Origin: Bacteroidota bacterium
GTDB taxonomy: Bacteria; Bacteroidota; Bacteroidia; Chitinophagales; Chitinophagaceae
DNA length: 33,080 nucleotides
Assembly: GCA_005882975.1 (NCBI GenBank)
Contig: VBAS01000095.1
Location: 1 to 33,080 of the forward strand
Direction of reading: 5' to 3'
Positions 12,521 through 29,871 of this stretch are shown here, piece after piece. The number at the start of each line of letters is the position of its first letter. The first letter of the stretch is position 1. Both the position numbers and the translations under genes were made by a program. Under the pieces are notes generated by a model, which did not search any database, was not told where the DNA came from, and saw only the letters and a program-made list of their open reading frames with translations.

Positions 12521-13477
12521 TTATCTGTTGATCACAAAATTGATAAGATCTTCAAGTCCTTTCCGTGAATCGTCATTGGGAAATTGATAAAGAATTTCTT
12601 TTGCCTTACTATAAAATTCATTCATTTTGTCCGATGCATATTGAATTCCTCCAGACCTGGTCACTATATCGGCGACTTTTGTTACTTGTGTAGTATCTGT
12701 ATTTTTATTTTTTATGATATAAATGATTTCGCGGCGGGTTTTTTTATCACAATTTTTCAAAGTATAAATAAGAGGGAGTGTAAGTTTTTTTTCTTTGATG
12801 TCATTACCCGTAGGCTTACCGATCTTATCGCTGGCATAGTCAAATAGGTCATCCTTGATTTGAAAAGCCATACCAGCATATTCACCAAAGGATCTCATTT
12901 GTTCAGTTTTCTCTTCATCATTTGAAGACGACCATGCGCCGGCGGCGCAGGCTGATGCCAATAAGGATGCGGTTTTGTTTCTTATAATTTCATAATATAC
13001 ATCTTCCGGAATATTCAGTGTTCTTGTTTTTTCTAATTGCAACAATTCTCCTTCACTCATTTTTCTTACAGCATCAGAAAGTATATGCAGTATTTTATAA
13101 TCGTTATTATCGAGAGATAATAAAAGACCCTTTGCAAGGAGATAATCACCGATCAATACAGAAGCTTTTGTTTTCCATAATGCATAAACCGAGAAAAAGC
13201 CTCTTCTTTCTGCAGAATCATCCACCACATCATCATGAACCAGCGTTGCAGTATGCAATAATTCAACGAGTGACGCAGCCCTATAAGTGCTTTCTGTGAT
13301 AGATCCGCAAAGTCTGGCAGACAGCAAAACAAACATTGGACGGAGCTGCTTGCCTTTCCTTTTTACAACATAGCGCATAATGCGATCTAAAAGAGGTGCT
13401 CTGCTTTTTGCAGCCTCTTTAAACCTATCTTCAAAGGTTTTAAGTTCATTTTCGATTACTGATGAGGGTAAATTCAT
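12521..13477 (-). CDS. Polyprenyl synthetase (trans-isoprenyl diphosphate synthase)
   Basis: 318 aa; LLHTATLVHDDVVDDSAERRG and second Asp-rich motif QIKDDLFDYASD. Confidence 0.94.
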   Translation of the reverse strand: MNLPSSVIENELKTFEDRFKEAAKSRAPLLDRIMRYVVKRKGKQLRPMFVLLSARLCGSITESTYRAASLVELLHTATLVHDDVVDDSAERRGFFSVYALWKTKASVLIGDYLLAKGLLLSLDNNDYKILHILSDAVRKMSEGELLQLEKTRTLNIPEDVYYEIIRNKTASLLASACAAGAWSSSNDEEKTEQMRSFGEYAGMAFQIKDDLFDYASDKIGKPTGNDIKEKKLTLPLIYTLKNCDKKTRREIIYIIKNKNTDTTQVTKVADIVTRSGGIQYASDKMNEFYSKAKEILYQFPNDDSRKGLEDLINFVINR

Positions 13478-20114: not shown

Positions 20115-20786
20115 ATGGCTATCGATAAATATGGAATTGCAAAAAGAATTGCCCAGGAGCTTAAAGACGGAATGTATGTAAATCTCGGGATTGGTATACC
20201 AACTCTTGTTGCCAACTTTATTCCACATGGAATCAGTATTATGCTTCAGAGTGAAAATGGAATGCTTGGCATGGGCCCTTACCCGGTAGAAGAAAATATC
20301 GATGCGGATCTTATAAATGCCGGCAAAGAGACGGTAACGATTTTACCCGGTGGCGCTTTTTTTGACAGTGCCGAAAGTTTTGGAATGATAAGAGCGGGTA
20401 AAGTTGACTTAACAGTATTAGGTGCTATGGAAGTAAGTGAAACCGGTGATATTGCTAACTGGAAAATTCCGGGGAAGATGGTGAAGGGAATGGGAGGTGC
20501 CATGGATCTTGTCGCAAGTGCCCGAAATATTATAGTAGCAATGATGCATACAAATCCCAAAGGGGAATCGAAATTATTACCTGCATGTCAATTACCACTT
20601 ACAGGAGTAAGATGTGTAAAGAAAATAGTTACCGATCTGGCGGTTCTTGACATTACTTCAAATGGATTTAAATTAATAGAGAGAGCTCCGGGTGTTAGTG
20701 TTGAAGAAATTGTGTCAAAAACTGCGGGTAAATTAATTATCGAAGGTGATATTCCGGAAATGAAATTTGAAATGCGAAATCATTAA
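20115..20786 (+). CDS. 3-oxoacid CoA-transferase subunit B
   Basis: 223 aa; [47 protein letters not shown]. Confidence 0.95.
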
Positions 20787-21433
20787 TCGACAAGATTATT
20801 TTTAACAGCAAAGAATACCAGGCCCGCTGTATTCCGGCTTCCAAATCTTTCCATTAACCTGTCTTTGATTGCTTCAACAGTTCTCGCACTGATCTCCATT
20901 TTTTGAGCAATTTCCTGTGCAGTAAATTCCATGCAGATGAAACGAAGCACATCTCTTTCTTTATCGTTCATGGTAATTTCACTAGTGAGAGAAGGAACGA
21001 CTTTCTGACGGGCATGCGAACGTTTTAGTAAAATGCGGTTGACAAAATTATTCAGATAGTATCCTTTTTCGTAAACGTCCATTATAGCTCTTCTTATTTC
21101 CTGGGGTTCGGCATTTTTAAGCAAGTAACCATTCGCTCCGTTTTCCATCATGTGATAAACGAATCTTTCATCTTCATACATAGTAAGAACCACAACTTTA
21201 ATTTGGGGGTATTGTTTGCTAACGATCTTGGTGGCTTCCATTCCATCTTTTCCCGGCATTCGAAGATCCATCAATATCACATCAGGCTCATTACCGGAAA
21301 TTCCTTTTATTAATTCTTCACCATTTTCCGCTTCAAGTACAAATTTTATATTAGTATAGGGTCGGAGTGAAAGGATAACTCCTTTGCGGAAAATTTTATG
21401 ATCATCTGCAATTGCTACTTTAATAATCCCCAT
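20783..21433 (-). CDS. NarL/LuxR-type response regulator RR1 (cassette 1)
   Basis: 216 aa; [80 protein letters not shown]. Confidence 0.95.
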
Positions 21434-21500
21434 AGATATCAGATTGCACCAAATTATTATAATTCAAAGTCCGGAAGATAAATATATTTCTGAATAACAT

Positions 21501-22328
21501 TTATGAACTATATGGTTCGTCTTTAGGTACTTCGATCGTTACTTTATAATAGGTTTGCGAAATATCCTTTTCAAAAAGGATTTCACCCTGTAACAAACGA
21601 ATGCGGCTACCGATATTTTTTAACCCCAAACCAATATTGCTCTTATTTAATTTTTCAAAATCAGACTGTACAATACCGCGGCCATCATGATGTATACGAA
21701 GATAAAACTTGTCGGCATGCACATTCTGAGTTAAATGGATAAAACTTGAATTGCTATGCTTCAGAATATTATTGATAAGTTCCTGTATGATACGGAAAAC
21801 AAGTAATTCTTTTTCTGGCTTTAGCCTGTCTTTATAATCATGAAATCGCTGACTGGCATTTACTGTACCGCTACCACTAATTTTTTGAAACAAATCATTG
21901 ATCGCTGATTCCAACCCAAAGTTTTTAAGCGTTGGAGGCATCAGGTCATGACTTATATTTCTAATTAATTGAATAGTGTCATCAATGATCTGTCTTGCCT
22001 GGAAAATACTTTGAAGCTGGTTTACTTTATCCTGGTTTACAAGATTCTCATTTAAATAGAGTCTTGCAGTAGCCAATAATGGGCCGGCATCATCATGCAG
22101 GTCTGCCGCCAGGCGTTGACGTTCTTCCTCCTGCATTTTGATGGAAGCATTCAACATCATTTTTTGCTGTTCAATTTCCATTTGTTGCAGTTTTTGCTGG
22201 AAGCGCTGCACCCTGCGCTGATGCATAATAATAAATACCACAAGTCCGATAGTAAGAACAAGCATCCCGATAGTGCCCAGGAATAACGCCGTGGTGGTAG
22301 AAGAATTTGTGGCTTGTAGTAAAAACAT
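21501..22328 (-). CDS. HisKA_3-type sensor histidine kinase HK1 with single N-terminal TM (cassette 1)
   Basis: 275 aa; EEERQRLAADLHDDAGPLLATARLYL, RIIQELINNILKHSNSS, NIGLGLKNIGSRIRLLQG; no extracytoplasmic sensor domain. Confidence 0.93.
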   Translation of the reverse strand: MFLLQATNSSTTTALFLGTIGMLVLTIGLVVFIIMHQRRVQRFQQKLQQMEIEQQKMMLNASIKMQEEERQRLAADLHDDAGPLLATARLYLNENLVNQDKVNQLQSIFQARQIIDDTIQLIRNISHDLMPPTLKNFGLESAINDLFQKISGSGTVNASQRFHDYKDRLKPEKELLVFRIIQELINNILKHSNSSFIHLTQNVHADKFYLRIHHDGRGIVQSDFEKLNKSNIGLGLKNIGSRIRLLQGEILFEKDISQTYYKVTIEVPKDEPYSS

Positions 22329-22352
22329 AATTTGATAATAAAGGGTGGTGGA

Positions 22353-23015
22353 TTAAATCATGTCAAGATTTGGAAAATTTTTAGGATGATTAAGGATATG
22401 GTTAACCGGATGCTTTTTGTACATATAAATAGAGAATGCGAATAATAAATTCTTAATAATCTCAGCCACAAAAGTCATATTACCGAATCTATTGATTTCG
22501 TCAGGAGTAAGATTATTAATGAGAATATAAAAGAAGAATGACCCACCTAAATATATCATGATTCCCACTGCTATCCAGAAAGTATAATGATTATATATGT
22601 ATATGTCCTTTATGTATTTAGAAAATTCATAAAAGAAATAGAAAATGTAAATAAAAAGTAAGATTGTTTCTATACCAATAGGGATGCTATCTAATCTCTT
22701 AAAAGTAGTTGTCGTAACAAAGAATATTTGGAAAATAATAAACAACACAGAGGCTATCAGAATCAAAATTTTGAACACCTTCTTTTGAATATGAAGCCAA
22801 AAAATGTAAGTGAAAAAAGAATACTCTAATAATGTATAAAATGCCTGAATATATTTGCGAAGGTCTTTAGGAGTTTCATAATAGACCATTAAATATCCAA
22901 AAAAAACCAACCCGTATAACGCCAAGGTTACTGGTATTCTATCTTTTAGCTTAGATCGAAATAGCAGAAATGCAAGTGGGAGAATTAAGTACGAATATGT
23001 TACTGGTAAATACAA
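22353..23015 (-). CDS. Multi-spanning integral membrane protein of unknown function TM1 (cassette 1)
   Basis: 220 aa, several predicted TM segments; encoded 24 bp upstream of HK1 on the same strand; FWIAVGIMIYLGGSFFFYILIN. Confidence 0.85.
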   Translation of the reverse strand: MYLPVTYSYLILPLAFLLFRSKLKDRIPVTLALYGLVFFGYLMVYYETPKDLRKYIQAFYTLLEYSFFTYIFWLHIQKKVFKILILIASVLFIIFQIFFVTTTTFKRLDSIPIGIETILLFIYIFYFFYEFSKYIKDIYIYNHYTFWIAVGIMIYLGGSFFFYILINNLTPDEINRFGNMTFVAEIIKNLLFAFSIYMYKKHPVNHILNHPKNFPNLDMI

Positions 23016-23456
23016 AAGCTTTTCTAAATTTGGATTTGAACCAAAAATAGAAAAACTTTAGTTAGATTTTTAATACTTTGGGGATTATTCTTCCCAAATA
23101 GTAATTAAGATATCATTCTCCCAAGCTCTCTTTACATTCTTTTTCATAACACTAGTTTTTAGCCTTAAGATTAATTGTAAGGTAAAAGTTGCCCAAACAA
23201 AGAGGGTTTTCAAGGGAGAGGAGTTAGAATGCTACTGCCATAATCGGATGAAACGATATACCAGAGAGACTTTCATCCGATTTAACAAGTACTTGTACTA
23301 CTCAAATACGAGTAAAAATTCTAGGTATTTTTAGTATTTTTACGGGTATAAAAATAGGATGTTTACTTGAAATTATCCGATTTTTCAGACACTTGTTAAC
23401 AGATGTGGAAAACAGGCGTGTTATATGGGAGAAAACTTGAACTCAAAGAAGAAAAG

Positions 23457-23661
23457 AAGTTGATTGACTGCGGAGTTCGCAATGGTCTTCAAAGGATAAT
23501 GTGATTTCTTTTTTTGGACGGTTTTTCCCGATTGAGATCGGGATTAGGACATTGGATATTGAGGGAGCTAATCCTCGTCAATCAACTTGATTCAAATGTA
23601 GAAAGGCATTCCAACGACTGCAAGAGCAAATCTGCTCAACTTTATTGTTATGGTTTTTACT
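23457..23661. repeat. Structured intergenic repeat element, copy A
   Basis: 12-bp inverted repeat AAGTTGATTGAC(23457-23468)/GTCAATCAACTT(23577-23588); shares ordered blocks with copy B: AAAGGAT, ATTTCTTTTTTGGACGGTTT, GGACATTGGA, AATCAACTT, CAAGAGCAAA, TTATGGTTTTTACT. Confidence 0.8.
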
Positions 23662-23884
23662 AACGGGGTCGTAGATATACAATAAACATATAGGATTGTT
23701 TGTATGGTAGATTTTGAAGAATGGATATTTAAGACAACAGCTAGGAACTTTACCTAATTAATATTTTAGCTATAATTTTTTGATTTGAAATAATTTGTTC
23801 GCATGCCTTCAAAATTTATTGATTATAAAAAAGGAGTATTTTCGTCCGGCTTTTACTTAACCCCATTAAAGCGAACCACAACAC

Positions 23885-24541
23885 ATGACTGCTGATCAAA
23901 TCAAAGTTGCTATTGCCGATGACCATAAAATATTTCGTGATGGAATAAAAATGGCGCTGCGAGATAAGGAATACCTGAAAATACTTTGGGAGGCTGAAGA
24001 TGGAAAAGATCTGATGCACAAACTGAAGATCAAGATGCCTGATGTTATATTAATGGATATCCGTATGCCTGAAGTAGACGGTATAAATGCCATCAGCCTT
24101 ATCAGGAAGGAGTATGAAGCATTGAAAATAATTGTTCTTACAATGTATGACGACCAGGAAATGATCACTAAGATGATGGAAATGGGCGCAAATGCATATT
24201 TAACCAAGACAACTGATCCCGAAGAAATATACCAGGCGATACTTACTTGTATGAATGATGACTTTTATTTTAATGACCTGGTAAATAAAGCTGTGCTGCT
24301 TAAGCTGCAACATAAAAAGAAAGTACGGCAATTTTATCCCAATCCCGTCAAACTTTCAGAAAAGGAAATAAAGATCCTAAAACTGATCGCTGAGGACAAA
24401 ACAACAGAAGAGATCTCAAAAGAAGTATTTCTTAGTCCCCGTACTATTGAAACGATACGTCAAAACATGAAACAAAAGGTTGGCGCTAAGACTATAGCTG
24501 GGCTGGTGATGTATGCCATGCGTAACAAGCTATTAGAATAA
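23885..24541 (+). CDS. NarL/LuxR-type response regulator RR2 (no adjacent kinase in the same operon)
   Basis: 218 aa; [78 protein letters not shown]. Confidence 0.95.
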   Translation: MTADQIKVAIADDHKIFRDGIKMALRDKEYLKILWEAEDGKDLMHKLKIKMPDVILMDIRMPEVDGINAISLIRKEYEALKIIVLTMYDDQEMITKMMEMGANAYLTKTTDPEEIYQAILTCMNDDFYFNDLVNKAVLLKLQHKKKVRQFYPNPVKLSEKEIKILKLIAEDKTTEEISKEVFLSPRTIETIRQNMKQKVGAKTIAGLVMYAMRNKLLE

Positions 24542-25870: not shown

Positions 25871-26545
25871 ATGAAAAACCCAGAAACAACAAGCCATGTA
25901 ATTAAGGTGGCTATTGCCGATGATCACACACTTTTCCGTTCCGGTGTGAAAGCATCTTTGACTGCGCATAAGGACATACACATGGTAGCTGAAGCTGAGA
26001 ATGGCATGCAGATGCTTAATTTATTAAAGCATATTCAGCCCGATGTTGTACTTCTTGATATTTCAATGCCCATCATGGATGGTCTTGCAACATTACCCGA
26101 AATAAAAAAGTTATACCCTGGCGTAAAAGTGATCATGCTCAGCATGCACAATGATCATTCAATGATCAGCCGCATGATGGAGATCGGTGCTAACAGCTAC
26201 CTGACAAAGGAAAGTGGTGCTGAAAAGATCTATGAAGCGATCAAACAGGTATATGAAAATGAATTTTTCTTTAATGACCTTACTAATAAGGCATTGTTAA
26301 GCGGTTTGCGCAATAAGACATTCGCTGATGCTCACAAGCCTGCAGAAGTTCATTTGAATGAAAAAGAAATTACCATCCTGCGCCTGATGTGCGAAGAGAA
26401 AAGCACAAAAGAAATTGCAGATATAGTTGACCTGAGCCCCCGCACCGTTGAAGCTATCCGTGACAAATTAAAAACTAAGACCGGCACTAAGAGTATGGCT
26501 GGCTTAGTAATGTATGCGGTGAAAGCAGGAATTGTTGAACAATAG
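25871..26545 (+). CDS. NarL/LuxR-type response regulator RR3 (no adjacent kinase in the same operon)
   Basis: 224 aa; VAIADDHTLFRSGV, VVLLDISMPIMDGL, GANSYLTKESGAEKIYEAI, HTH KSTKEIADIVDLSPRTVEAIRDKLKTKT. Confidence 0.95.
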   Translation: MKNPETTSHVIKVAIADDHTLFRSGVKASLTAHKDIHMVAEAENGMQMLNLLKHIQPDVVLLDISMPIMDGLATLPEIKKLYPGVKVIMLSMHNDHSMISRMMEIGANSYLTKESGAEKIYEAIKQVYENEFFFNDLTNKALLSGLRNKTFADAHKPAEVHLNEKEITILRLMCEEKSTKEIADIVDLSPRTVEAIRDKLKTKTGTKSMAGLVMYAVKAGIVEQ

Positions 26546-26571: not shown

Positions 26572-26600
26572 AAATGGCATCAGGTAACGATGCCATTTTT
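26572..26600 (+). terminator. Rho-independent terminator for RR3, overlapping the 3' end of convergent RR4
   Basis: AAATGGCATC(26572-26581)-7 nt-GATGCCATTT(26589-26598), 10-bp stem with T tail; RR4 stop codon at 26580-26582 lies in the hairpin. Confidence 0.8.
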
Positions 26601-27239
26601 TATTGCGAACATCACAAGGCCGGCAGTATTCCGTACTCCAACTTTTTCTATTAATCGCTGACGAATACCTTCTACGGAACGAGGACTTAGAAAAATTTCT
26701 TTTGCAATCTCAGCTGCGGTCTTTTCTTCACAAATAAGTTTAAGCACTTCCTGCTCTCTTTCCGAAAATTCTACATTTTGATTAAATGACGGTTTGAAAT
26801 TATTTTTGATAACAAGCTTTTTTAATAATGCTTTGTTTACAAGATCATTGAAATAGTAACCGTTTTCGTGTACTGCATATATAGATTTTCTTATTTCATC
26901 CGGTTCTGTGTTCTTAAGTAAGTAGCCATTTGCGCCGATCTCCATAAGATGGATGATGAATTTGTCATCTTCATACATCGTAACAACCAGGACTTTTACA
27001 GATGGAAATTTTTTTCGAATGATCTGGGTAGCTTCCATCCCATCCATTATTGGCATTTTCAGGTCCATGATCACAACATCCGGCAATTTTTTTTCAAATC
27101 CATTAATAAGGTCTTCCCCATTATCTGCCTCAAATATCACTTCTAAGGATTTATCATTTGCAATGCATTTCTTTAATCCTTCCCGGTATATTTTGTAATC
27201 ATCTGCAATTGCAATTTGTATCTTTTTTTCTTTGCTCAT
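26580..27239 (-). CDS. NarL/LuxR-type response regulator RR4 (cassette 2)
   Basis: 219 aa; [80 protein letters not shown]. Confidence 0.95.
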   Translation of the reverse strand: MSKEKKIQIAIADDYKIYREGLKKCIANDKSLEVIFEADNGEDLINGFEKKLPDVVIMDLKMPIMDGMEATQIIRKKFPSVKVLVVTMYEDDKFIIHLMEIGANGYLLKNTEPDEIRKSIYAVHENGYYFNDLVNKALLKKLVIKNNFKPSFNQNVEFSEREQEVLKLICEEKTAAEIAKEIFLSPRSVEGIRQRLIEKVGVRNTAGLVMFAIKNGIVT

Positions 27240-28066
27240 ATTACTACAGGTATAGACAATTGAATAATATACTCCCCAGTGTCCAGTTTTGTGAAATGAA
27301 TTTTTCCTTTCAGTAAAATTATGCGGTTTTGAATATTTTTCAGACCCAGCCCCGCAGGTTTAAATCTTAATTCTTCAAATTGTTCCTGCGTTAGTCCTTT
27401 TCCATTATGCTGGATGTGCAACTCCAATTGAATTTGACTAAGCGAAGACCGAATGTTTATAAGACGAGGGTGTGCATGTTTTATCAGGTTATTTACCAGT
27501 TCCTGGATGATGCGATAAACTGCCAGGTCTGTTTCAGCATTTGATATCTGGTATTCGTCATCAAGGTCTACTGTGCTGTTTACAACCGAGCCGCCAGTTA
27601 TCTTTTTCATAAAATGACGAATGGCTTCATTTAAACCGAATTCTTTCAGAATTGTGGAATGAAGATTATGCGAGATGGTACGGACTTTCTGTATTGATTC
27701 GTCTATCATTTCTTTCACTTTTGCATGATCCTGTTTATCGTTTTCAGAAAGATTGTGTGTATTCATCTCAACAAGAAAGATTCGTGAAGAAGAAAGTAAA
27801 GCGCCGACTTCATCGTGAAGCATTTCAGCTATCCGGTGACGTTCGCCTTCCTCACTTCTTACGGCTGATTCAATTAATTGATTTTGCTGGTGTTCCTTTA
27901 ATTGACTCATTTGTTTTTGCAACATCCATTTCTTGCGTTGGTTAACCATCATTAAAAGTAGAAACCCTGCCGCCAACAAAAGCATGGCTGCAATTCCTAT
28001 AGTAATCATGAAGGTAATATCAAGTAACAAAATATCGAGCAGTTTATTCACGAGTAAAGAATTCAT
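27236..28066 (-). CDS. HisKA_3-type sensor histidine kinase HK2 with N-terminal TM (cassette 2)
   Basis: 276 aa; GERHRIAEMLHDEVGALLSSSRIFL, RIIQELVNNLIKHAHPR, PAGLGLKNIQNRIILLKG; 4-bp overlaps with both neighbours. Confidence 0.93.
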   Translation of the reverse strand: MNSLLVNKLLDILLLDITFMITIGIAAMLLLAAGFLLLMMVNQRKKWMLQKQMSQLKEHQQNQLIESAVRSEEGERHRIAEMLHDEVGALLSSSRIFLVEMNTHNLSENDKQDHAKVKEMIDESIQKVRTISHNLHSTILKEFGLNEAIRHFMKKITGGSVVNSTVDLDDEYQISNAETDLAVYRIIQELVNNLIKHAHPRLINIRSSLSQIQLELHIQHNGKGLTQEQFEELRFKPAGLGLKNIQNRIILLKGKIHFTKLDTGEYIIQLSIPVVI

Positions 28067-28758
28067 TTTGCTTTTTTAAAACCGATAGCAATAAAGATCA
28101 TTAAAACAATATAAATAAGATTATGAACATTCCAGATGCTCATGGCATATGTTCTTTCTGCATTGATCAGGTAATTGTAAAACAAGAATATCAAAAAATT
28201 TACAGAGGTATAAAGCGTAAGACCCATTACAATCCAAAAGGGAGGCAAAGCCAATGGTGATTTAATTTCGTCATTCATATTTACTGTGTAATAATATAAA
28301 AGACAATAAAAAAGTATGATAGCTGCCTCTATTGTGAATAGCCTACTGCTGAATGACAATACGATATTTTCAAAAAATCCAAAATTAATAATTACGCCAG
28401 TTAAAAAAAGGCTAGTAATGATTAAATATGTTTTCTTGTATAAGGGATTTACCTTATAAAAAAACCATGTAAGAAGTAGTAAACGTAAAAAAGAATTGAT
28501 ATTATAAAAAATAAGAGTATACAAAATCTTACCACGATATAGCCACCATAAAGTTCTCTCGACCCAGTCTTTTATCCCTAGTTCTTTAGATTTCCAGGTG
28601 ATGTCAACCACTACGCCGAGTAATAAGGCAATTAACAGGTAAATTAGTAATGGTCTCGTCCAAATAGCTTTCGGCTTTATCCAGATATAAACAATCAGAG
28701 GTATGAGTGTTGCCCACACCTCTGACCAATCCAATACTCCTTCTAAAATTTTTCCCAT
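28063..28758 (-). CDS. Multi-spanning integral membrane protein of unknown function TM2 (cassette 2)
   Basis: 231 aa, several predicted TM segments; overlaps HK2 start by 4 bp; FWIVMGLTLYTSVNFLIFLFYNYLI resembles TM1. Confidence 0.85.
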   Translation of the reverse strand: MGKILEGVLDWSEVWATLIPLIVYIWIKPKAIWTRPLLIYLLIALLLGVVVDITWKSKELGIKDWVERTLWWLYRGKILYTLIFYNINSFLRLLLLTWFFYKVNPLYKKTYLIITSLFLTGVIINFGFFENIVLSFSSRLFTIEAAIILFYCLLYYYTVNMNDEIKSPLALPPFWIVMGLTLYTSVNFLIFLFYNYLINAERTYAMSIWNVHNLIYIVLMIFIAIGFKKAK

Positions 28759-28767
28759 TGTTGTTTA

Positions 28768-29178
28768 TTATGATCCTGGTTGATTAGGTGGACAGGGATT
28801 AAGCTGGTCATAAGTAACTGCAGCAGGGTTTATTGTAATAGGCATGGGAGTAAGAATTATGTCTTTACTTCCATCATCACTCTTTTGTTTAAGTTCACTT
28901 TTGGACATCTCGTGTTGAAGAAAAATGAGCTCATCATCTATCGGAATATTTTTCATCTTAATTGCATCGGGATGGGCTTCAATAAAAATAAGGTGTGAGT
29001 CTTCAATTTTTTTTCTGCGTTTGTCAAGGATCTGTGCTACTAAAGTAAAATCATCTCCTTTGCGACGGTAAAATTGAATGCCAAGGCGATTGAACCCCTT
29101 TATTTTTTTTTTGCCGTGCAATAAATCATATATATCCTCTTTTTTAAAAATAAGAGTGGGAAAATTAAAAGTGGCCAT
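28768..29178 (-). CDS. Hypothetical protein without obvious signal peptide, C-terminus NPCPPNQPGS
   Basis: 136 aa ORF, 9 bp upstream of TM2 on the same strand; ends ...VTYDQLNPCPPNQPGS*. Confidence 0.8.
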   Translation of the reverse strand: MATFNFPTLIFKKEDIYDLLHGKKKIKGFNRLGIQFYRRKGDDFTLVAQILDKRRKKIEDSHLIFIEAHPDAIKMKNIPIDDELIFLQHEMSKSELKQKSDDGSKDIILTPMPITINPAAVTYDQLNPCPPNQPGS

Positions 29179-29262
29179 AAAAAATAATTTTAAGATTAAA
29201 GAATAGATTGCTCAATAGATTTCTCGATTCTATAAACCACGTTAGGATCCATTGGCATTCAT

Positions 29263-29871
29263 CTAATTGCCAGGTTGGTTCGGCGGACATGGATTAGTAT
29301 CGACACTGTTCAATGTGGCTATCACATGTTTCGCGGCGTTAAGTGCCACAACCTCAAAAATTAGATAGTGTATACCTTTCTTTGTAAACTGACTTTTCTT
29401 TGGTGTTAACTTCAAGTAGGCGAATTGGTATTCGAGGGGATTACCGCTAACGAAGTTCTGTGTCAAAAGCTCGTTATGCGCAAGCACGACACTTGATATG
29501 TCTAAAGTAACCGTCCCGGGCAGCACAGTCGCCTCTATGGGTTCAGTATTGGCTCCATAATGCGCATGGTCATTTGCAGCGTATAACCATAATTTCATAG
29601 TGCCTCCGGGATTGTTAATATTATCGAATTTGTACTGTATGATGAATTTACTTGGTCTTGGATTATTGGGGTTTCCCTGTAAAGGAGGCAACTGCTCCTT
29701 GGCAATGATGAAGGTTGGTAGAGTAGCAGAAAGGGGACTCACCTTCTTCTCAGTTGATGGCGATGTTGACTTATTACCATCGTCATTATTGCATGATACA
29801 ATTATGCAAATCAGACATAGAAAGGCAAGAATTTTGGACCTTGTCAGTAAGGAACTGTTTTGGTTGCTCAT
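29263..29871 (-). CDS. Putative lipoprotein of unknown function, C-terminus NPCPPNQPGN
   Basis: From ATG at 29871 (MSNQNSSLLTRSKILAFLCLICIIVSCNND, lipobox IVSC), ends ...LNSVDTNPCPPNQPGN*; ORF extends upstream to 29940. Confidence 0.8.
   Translation of the reverse strand: MSNQNSSLLTRSKILAFLCLICIIVSCNNDDGNKSTSPSTEKKVSPLSATLPTFIIAKEQLPPLQGNPNNPRPSKFIIQYKFDNINNPGGTMKLWLYAANDHAHYGANTEPIEATVLPGTVTLDISSVVLAHNELLTQNFVSGNPLEYQFAYLKLTPKKSQFTKKGIHYLIFEVVALNAAKHVIATLNSVDTNPCPPNQPGN

Follow-up and report, generated by a model that had tools for sequence, protein, structure and literature searches.

Two-component systems are common in Bacteroidota and, to our knowledge, the ligands of most of them are not known. 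The AgrBDCA system of Staphylococcus is an example in which a polytopic membrane sensor, working with a two-component pair, recognises a peptide-type signal. In the DegS/RseA system, a membrane module takes the C-terminus of a protein as its signal. In the ComQXPA system of Bacillus, a small gene, a membrane sensor, a HisKA_3 kinase and a GerE regulator follow one another in that order, the variable part of the small protein lies at its C-terminal end, and the ComP/ComA pair presents the Pfam domains PF07730 and PF02518 in the kinase and PF00072 and PF00196 in the regulator (PMC4008528).

The window, a stretch of 33,080 nucleotides from a Bacteroidota bacterium whose gene content suggests a place in Chitinophagaceae, contains on its minus strand a cassette that resembles ComX-ComP-ComA in layout but is not a member of that system. 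Its first two genes encode what we call carriers, proteins ending in a shared C-terminal tail. Carrier 1 (29263..29871, 202 aa, ATG start) presents a signal peptide and a lipobox (...IVSC, then NNDDG), while carrier 2 (28768..29178, 136 aa) has no signal peptide. They are followed by a 7-TM protein of no named family (TM2, 28063..28758), predicted to be N-out/C-in and the candidate tail receptor, then by the histidine kinase HK2 (27236..28066), with an N-terminal membrane anchor, HisKA_3 (PF07730) and HATPase_c (PF02518), and by the NarL-type response regulator RR2 (26580..27239), with a PF00072 receiver and a PF00196 GerE/LuxR DNA-binding domain. The coordinates leave gaps of 84, 9, -4 and -4 bp between these five minus-strand genes, which therefore probably form one operon. 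By their Pfam domains, HK2 and RR2 are standard members of the HisKA_3/NarL two-component families; compared with ordinary systems of this kind, the operon adds a 7-TM protein and a tailed carrier, both without a named family.

The differences from the described systems are several. Only the order carrier, 7-TM gene, kinase, regulator recurs in the loci that we surveyed, with no ComQ isoprenyl transferase, and the polyprenyl synthase-like ORF of the window (12521-13477) is some 13 kb distant, surrounded by genes of no relation. Carriers are proteins of 70-350 aa with a body domain, whereas ComX is a short pre-peptide; the polytopic sensor is encoded by a 7-TM gene of its own, whereas in ComP it is the N-terminal part of the kinase; and the tail core is made of Pro and Cys, whereas ComX requires Trp, a residue absent from the window tails. 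Unlike AgrBDCA, the cassette has no AgrB-like processing protease, no evidence of a thiolactone, and a regulator and kinase of the GerE and HisKA_3 families in place of a LytTR regulator. The likeness to DegS/RseA is one of analogy; the reader here would be a 7-TM protein with a kinase, with no PDZ domain or protease.

A second minus-strand cassette of the same kind, RR1-HK1-TM1, lies at 20783..23015. No carrier is recognisable upstream of TM1 (region 20783-23885), although TM1-type relatives at L092, L104, L109, L243 and L256 do come with a carrier, whose end is rich in Trp. Between the two cassettes, two lone NarL-type regulators lie on the plus strand (23885-24541 and 25871-26545); at L092 and L109 too, a regulator stands upstream of the TM1-type cassette and divergent from it.

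Both carriers of the window end in NPCPPNQPG[S/N]-stop. In carrier 1 (C-terminus ...SVDTNPCPPNQPGN-stop), the nine residues are encoded on the minus strand at 29269..29295 by AAT CCA TGT CCG CCG AAC CAA CCT GGC and followed by N; in carrier 2 (...YDQLNPCPPNQPGS-stop), they are encoded on the same strand at 28774..28800 by AAT CCC TGT CCA CCT AAT CAA CCA GGA and followed by S. The first-pass annotation had described the same tail on both neighbours and proposed selection on the peptide: the tail is indeed the same, with 9/9 residues identical and 6/9 codons synonymously different, and selection on the peptide is supported. Within the 4.76 Mb genome, C-P-P-N-x-P-G occurs exactly twice, both times at this locus. 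The string PCPPNQPG has no match in 247 other genomes of the window's family, and its 16 matches across 85,462 species are about the number expected by chance; two of these adjoin a stop, in ORFs that show no sign of belonging here. These counts make the exact string private to this locus. Taken alone, this uniqueness misleads, for what follows the core differs from system to system, whereas the core itself and where it stands are common across the class; the refuting condition named in the first-pass annotation, that the tail occurs in these two proteins only, is right for the exact string and wrong for the kind of tail.

A profile built from 31 relatives of the 7-TM protein (A1) places this protein in 213 of 258 sampled genomes of the window's family (83%), in 79 of 293 sampled genomes of its class (about a quarter) and, beyond the class, in three genomes of a different family. 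In about 150 loci, we inspected the proteins encoded immediately ahead of the 7-TM gene; with carriers called from ORF order and simple motifs, varied bodies there end in one kind of tail. Beside close relatives of the window 7-TM protein, the tails are NPCPPFKPD, NPTPPRNSY, NPSPPRATN, NPSPPY, NPVPPSLVP, NPSPPYQPGR, NPAPPF and NPCPPATII; at other loci, they take the forms ...YDFSxPCPxxCDxxSPL, ...RPCPxxCSxxNILN, ...GCPxPPGC and similar. Minor classes are NHGQIYP, NEGQLWP, LIPPxxS and GRPPxLxY, and ends rich in Trp, EWSWY and DWWS among them, are found only with relatives of TM1, the second 7-TM protein of the window. A mostly Cys-free class, N-x-G-x-[LI]-x-P, occupies the same position at L091, L251, L265, L086, L106, L198, L201, L190 and L188, with examples such as NHGQIYP-stop, NEGQLWP-stop, NDGHSHP-stop, NHGTLIPP and NYGNIGRPP. 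In a longer carrier type (L070_7, L077_5, L080_7), CPxPPGW stands mid-protein instead of at the end.

In the first two locus sets, CPx2-4C lies within the last 50 residues of 68/107 upstream proteins, picked with motif guidance, versus 6/776 other ORFs (Fisher 6e-66), and four of these six exceptions are carriers themselves. When the nearest same-strand upstream gene is taken instead, the strict motif is present in 65/103 and a broad motif (CPx2-4C or PxPP-type) in 82/103, compared with 23/776 control ORFs (about 3%) for the broad motif. Over all loci, the nearest upstream gene presents the strict motif in 82/139 and the broad one in 103/139, leaving about a quarter without it; the median gap from carrier to 7-TM gene is 15 bp, and a median of eight residues follows the motif (139 loci). 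The window fits the layout so defined, a Pro/Cys-tailed carrier directly upstream of a 7-TM gene on the same strand, then kinase and regulator. With the motif relaxed, the suggested tie between such tails and TM-HisKA_3-NarL cassettes is strongly positive (103/139 versus about 3% of controls), and the comparison of loci demonstrates an association between the genes for tailed carriers and for 7-TM proteins.

The diversity of these tails bears on two chemical readings. CPx2-4C is the commonest tail form (82/139), as would be expected if the Cys pair of CPxxC were a disulfide or metal-binding switch; however, many tails lack a Cys pair at the same position (NPSPPY, NPTPPRNSY, NPVPPSLVP, NHGTLIPP, GRPPSLIY), and the window tail has a single Cys. 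We consider a redox or metal site very unlikely, and reject it as the general role because Cys-free tails exist. A RiPP-like modified core, as offered by the first-pass annotation, found no support, in that no modification, export or peptidase gene recurs adjacent to the cassettes in the surveyed loci; such a gene could lie elsewhere in the genome.

At five loci, a pair of carriers precedes a single 7-TM gene: the window, L149, L158, L161 and L233. L149, L158 and L161 were picked up because two of their ORFs bear the motif, not through any match of tails, and L233 was noticed on reading the third locus set. The paired tails match in each (NPCPPNQPG in the window, FSRPCPPTC in L149, FSYPCPTTCADPG in L158, NPSPPY in L161 and NPSPPAKP in L233), agreeing over the core in all five and beyond the core in all except L161, while the codons that differ number 6/9, 5/9, 7/13, 2/6 and 7/8, respectively. 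Body identity within the pair is 27-46% for L149, L158 and L161, and pairwise similarity is not recognisable in L233 and the window. By comparison, carriers from different loci whose bodies are 20-50% identical form 261 pairs, none of them with identical tails, the mean tail identity being 47-53%, and in an anchored comparison none of 187 cross-locus NPxPP-type pairs reaches the nine matches of the window. The L161 pair is unexceptional alone, since 15% of the background reaches its match. At L087 and L187, where two carriers of two different receptors lie within about 5 kb, the tails are unlike. The five matched pairs, the 0/261 and these two loci lead us to conclude, from sequence comparison, that the tail is locked to the receptor that its carriers have in common and not to the body.

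A functionless leftover of duplication or gene conversion would also yield identical tails within a locus, and three of the five pairs do have recognisably homologous bodies. Synonymous tail codons have nevertheless diverged in 5/5 pairs, detectable pairwise body similarity is lost in 2/5, carriers of equal body divergence in different loci never have identical tails, and the kind of tail recurs throughout the class, so that we regard such a leftover as highly improbable. Gene conversion itself is rejected by the divergence of the tail codons between paired carriers.

Which partner reads the tail can be approached from co-variation. In 74 CPx2-4C systems, tail similarity follows 7-TM similarity with a rho of 0.38, in Mantel tests that model phylogeny only partly. 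The partial rho is 0.32 given the kinase and 0.32 given the carrier body (permutation p=0.002), and for tail and kinase it falls to 0.06 with the 7-TM protein held constant. The tail thus tracks the 7-TM protein but barely the kinase, which points to the 7-TM protein as the reader and, within the reach of these tests, shows that the two have diversified together. Seven hydrophobic segments are found in 105 of 139 relatives of this protein, and by the positive-inside rule 101 of the 105 are predicted N-out/C-in versus one. Among its polar positions, many of the most strongly conserved map to the outer half or the outer loops, as expected for an outward-facing pocket, and the main conserved inner features are W175 and G179, at the inner end of TM6. 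Searched against Pfam, the 7-TM proteins gave no credible match, and a single-sequence AlphaFold model, with a pLDDT of 55, was of too low a confidence to be useful. Tandem 7-TM genes, which may form heteromeric receptors, occur at L181, L183, L248, G432:C1 near 2.384 Mb and G603:C7; in L181, L183 and L248 they stand behind a single carrier.

The two carriers of the window had been described as one with a lipobox and one without a signal peptide, and otherwise dissimilar. The first point is borne out by N-terminal hydrophobic scores of 3.26 for carrier 1 and 0.47 for carrier 2. The second stands for pairwise comparison (Smith-Waterman p ~0.5) and fails by profile, hhalign relating carrier 1 to other carriers of the clade with an E of 9.5e-5 (probability 59%) and carrier 2 with an E of 4.8e-5 (probability 68%). 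The group with carrier 2 aligns by profile comparison to the pair L060_6/carrier 1 (probability 90%), and carrier 2 is homologous to L161_4, and an iterated search run with 600 decoys adds it to the L161 carriers; in L161, lipoprotein-type and signal-less carriers are clear homologues. By these profile comparisons, both window carriers belong to one carrier family with a common alpha/beta body pattern. A single-sequence search with either window carrier returned chance matches only, with no homologue in 149 genomes of the family; Pfam and NCBIfam gave nothing credible for the carriers. Profile searches of the PDB gave weak, unconvincing matches only. The carrier profile found no match in the window's own genome, a search that missed the known carriers too. 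A single-sequence AlphaFold model of carrier 2 (pLDDT 39) is too poor to confirm a fold, and its predicted order of strand-helix-strand-strand at least does not conflict with the carrier consensus.

We propose, with a probability of about 0.58, that the tail serves as a cognate-recognition peptide and that the adjoining 7-TM/kinase receptor reads it. Docking to the TM2/HK2 module, one of the roles suggested in the first-pass annotation, is the best-supported reading, given the five matched tail pairs, the 0/261 and the partial rho of 0.32. Each cassette would encode one, sometimes two, carriers with a Pro/Cys-rich C-terminal tail, which the adjacent 7-TM protein would recognise by physical binding, presumably on its outer face. 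The 7-TM protein and the membrane-anchored HisKA_3 kinase would together form a split receptor controlling the NarL-type regulator, and the carrier would act as the signal and not as an adaptor. The core (NPxPP in the clade of the window, PCPxxC in most others) would mark the family membership of a tail, while the residues around and after it would give specificity for its own receptor. The two divergent carriers of the window, an exported lipoprotein and a signal-less protein, would serve one receptor and would keep the same tail for that reason.

The main difficulty lies in the compartment. A signal for surface export has been described in Bacteroidetes (PMC5080379), and the start of carrier 1, C-NN-DD-G, appears to resemble it. 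By a simple hydrophobicity rule for the N-terminus, 33 of 139 carriers (about a quarter) look exported, and the window, L161 and L233 each mix exported and signal-less carriers. That so few carriers look exported, and that carrier 2 does not, fits poorly with a pocket on the outer face: either signal-less carriers exit by an unfamiliar route, or the tail acts inside, or it acts in both places. Because signal-less carriers leave this problem, we distinguish a released from a tethered or internal mode; both are forms of the cognate-recognition reading, and the likelihoods we assign to them overlap with that given above.

In the released mode, a stronger form of that reading, the tail would be cleaved and act between cells as ComX does on ComP, a quorum signal with species dialects. 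The gene order and the Pfam domains of kinase and regulator are those of ComX-ComP-ComA, the tail is C-terminal with a species-specific part after the core, lipoprotein and signal-peptide carriers occur, the conserved polar positions of the 7-TM protein are on its outer side, and several systems with unlike tails occur in one genome. Against this, most carriers have no export signal, genes for a protease, an exporter or a modification enzyme do not recur across the loci surveyed, the carrier body keeps its own conserved pattern, and the tail core is conserved class-wide, which leaves the released pheromone possible and, as a mode on its own, unlikely. The same lack of export signals and of processing genes, together with the conserved body pattern, would suit a tethered adaptor, whose body senses a ligand or stress and whose attached tail docks on the 7-TM protein or the kinase on the carrier's own side, as a docking motif and not an intercellular signal. 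Such docking fits the locking of tail to receptor, but exported and signal-less carriers of one receptor with the same tail (window, L161, L233) are awkward for docking on one face, and the conserved polar positions favour the outer face; we hold this mode, too, to be doubtful by itself.

The genome of the window has two other 7-TM systems (L144 and L145; G000:C50, G000:C419), whose carriers end in MCPPYCGGRDKDF... and GLIPPPPAGGE-stop, respectively. The unlike tails of these carriers are consistent with separate specificities within one cell. Extending the cognate-recognition reading, we tentatively suggest, at less than even odds, a Bacteroidota-wide communication by peptides or peptide-tailed proteins, in which carriers would present or release a C-terminal peptide. 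Its PxPP/CPxxC core would be conserved and the rest system-specific, its receptor would be a 7-TM protein separate from the HisKA_3 kinase, and a genome would contain several such systems insulated from one another.

In the open-licence PMC literature, we found neither a description of this cassette nor a peptide signalling system of this kind in Bacteroidota, although a report in a subscription journal or preprint could exist; the carrier/7-TM/HisKA_3/NarL cassette itself occurs across the phylum. For this widespread cassette, the comparison provides a hypothesis of ligand and receptor that can be tested and names candidate residues for specificity. If it is true, sequence alone could be enough to match many orphan kinases to candidate ligands.
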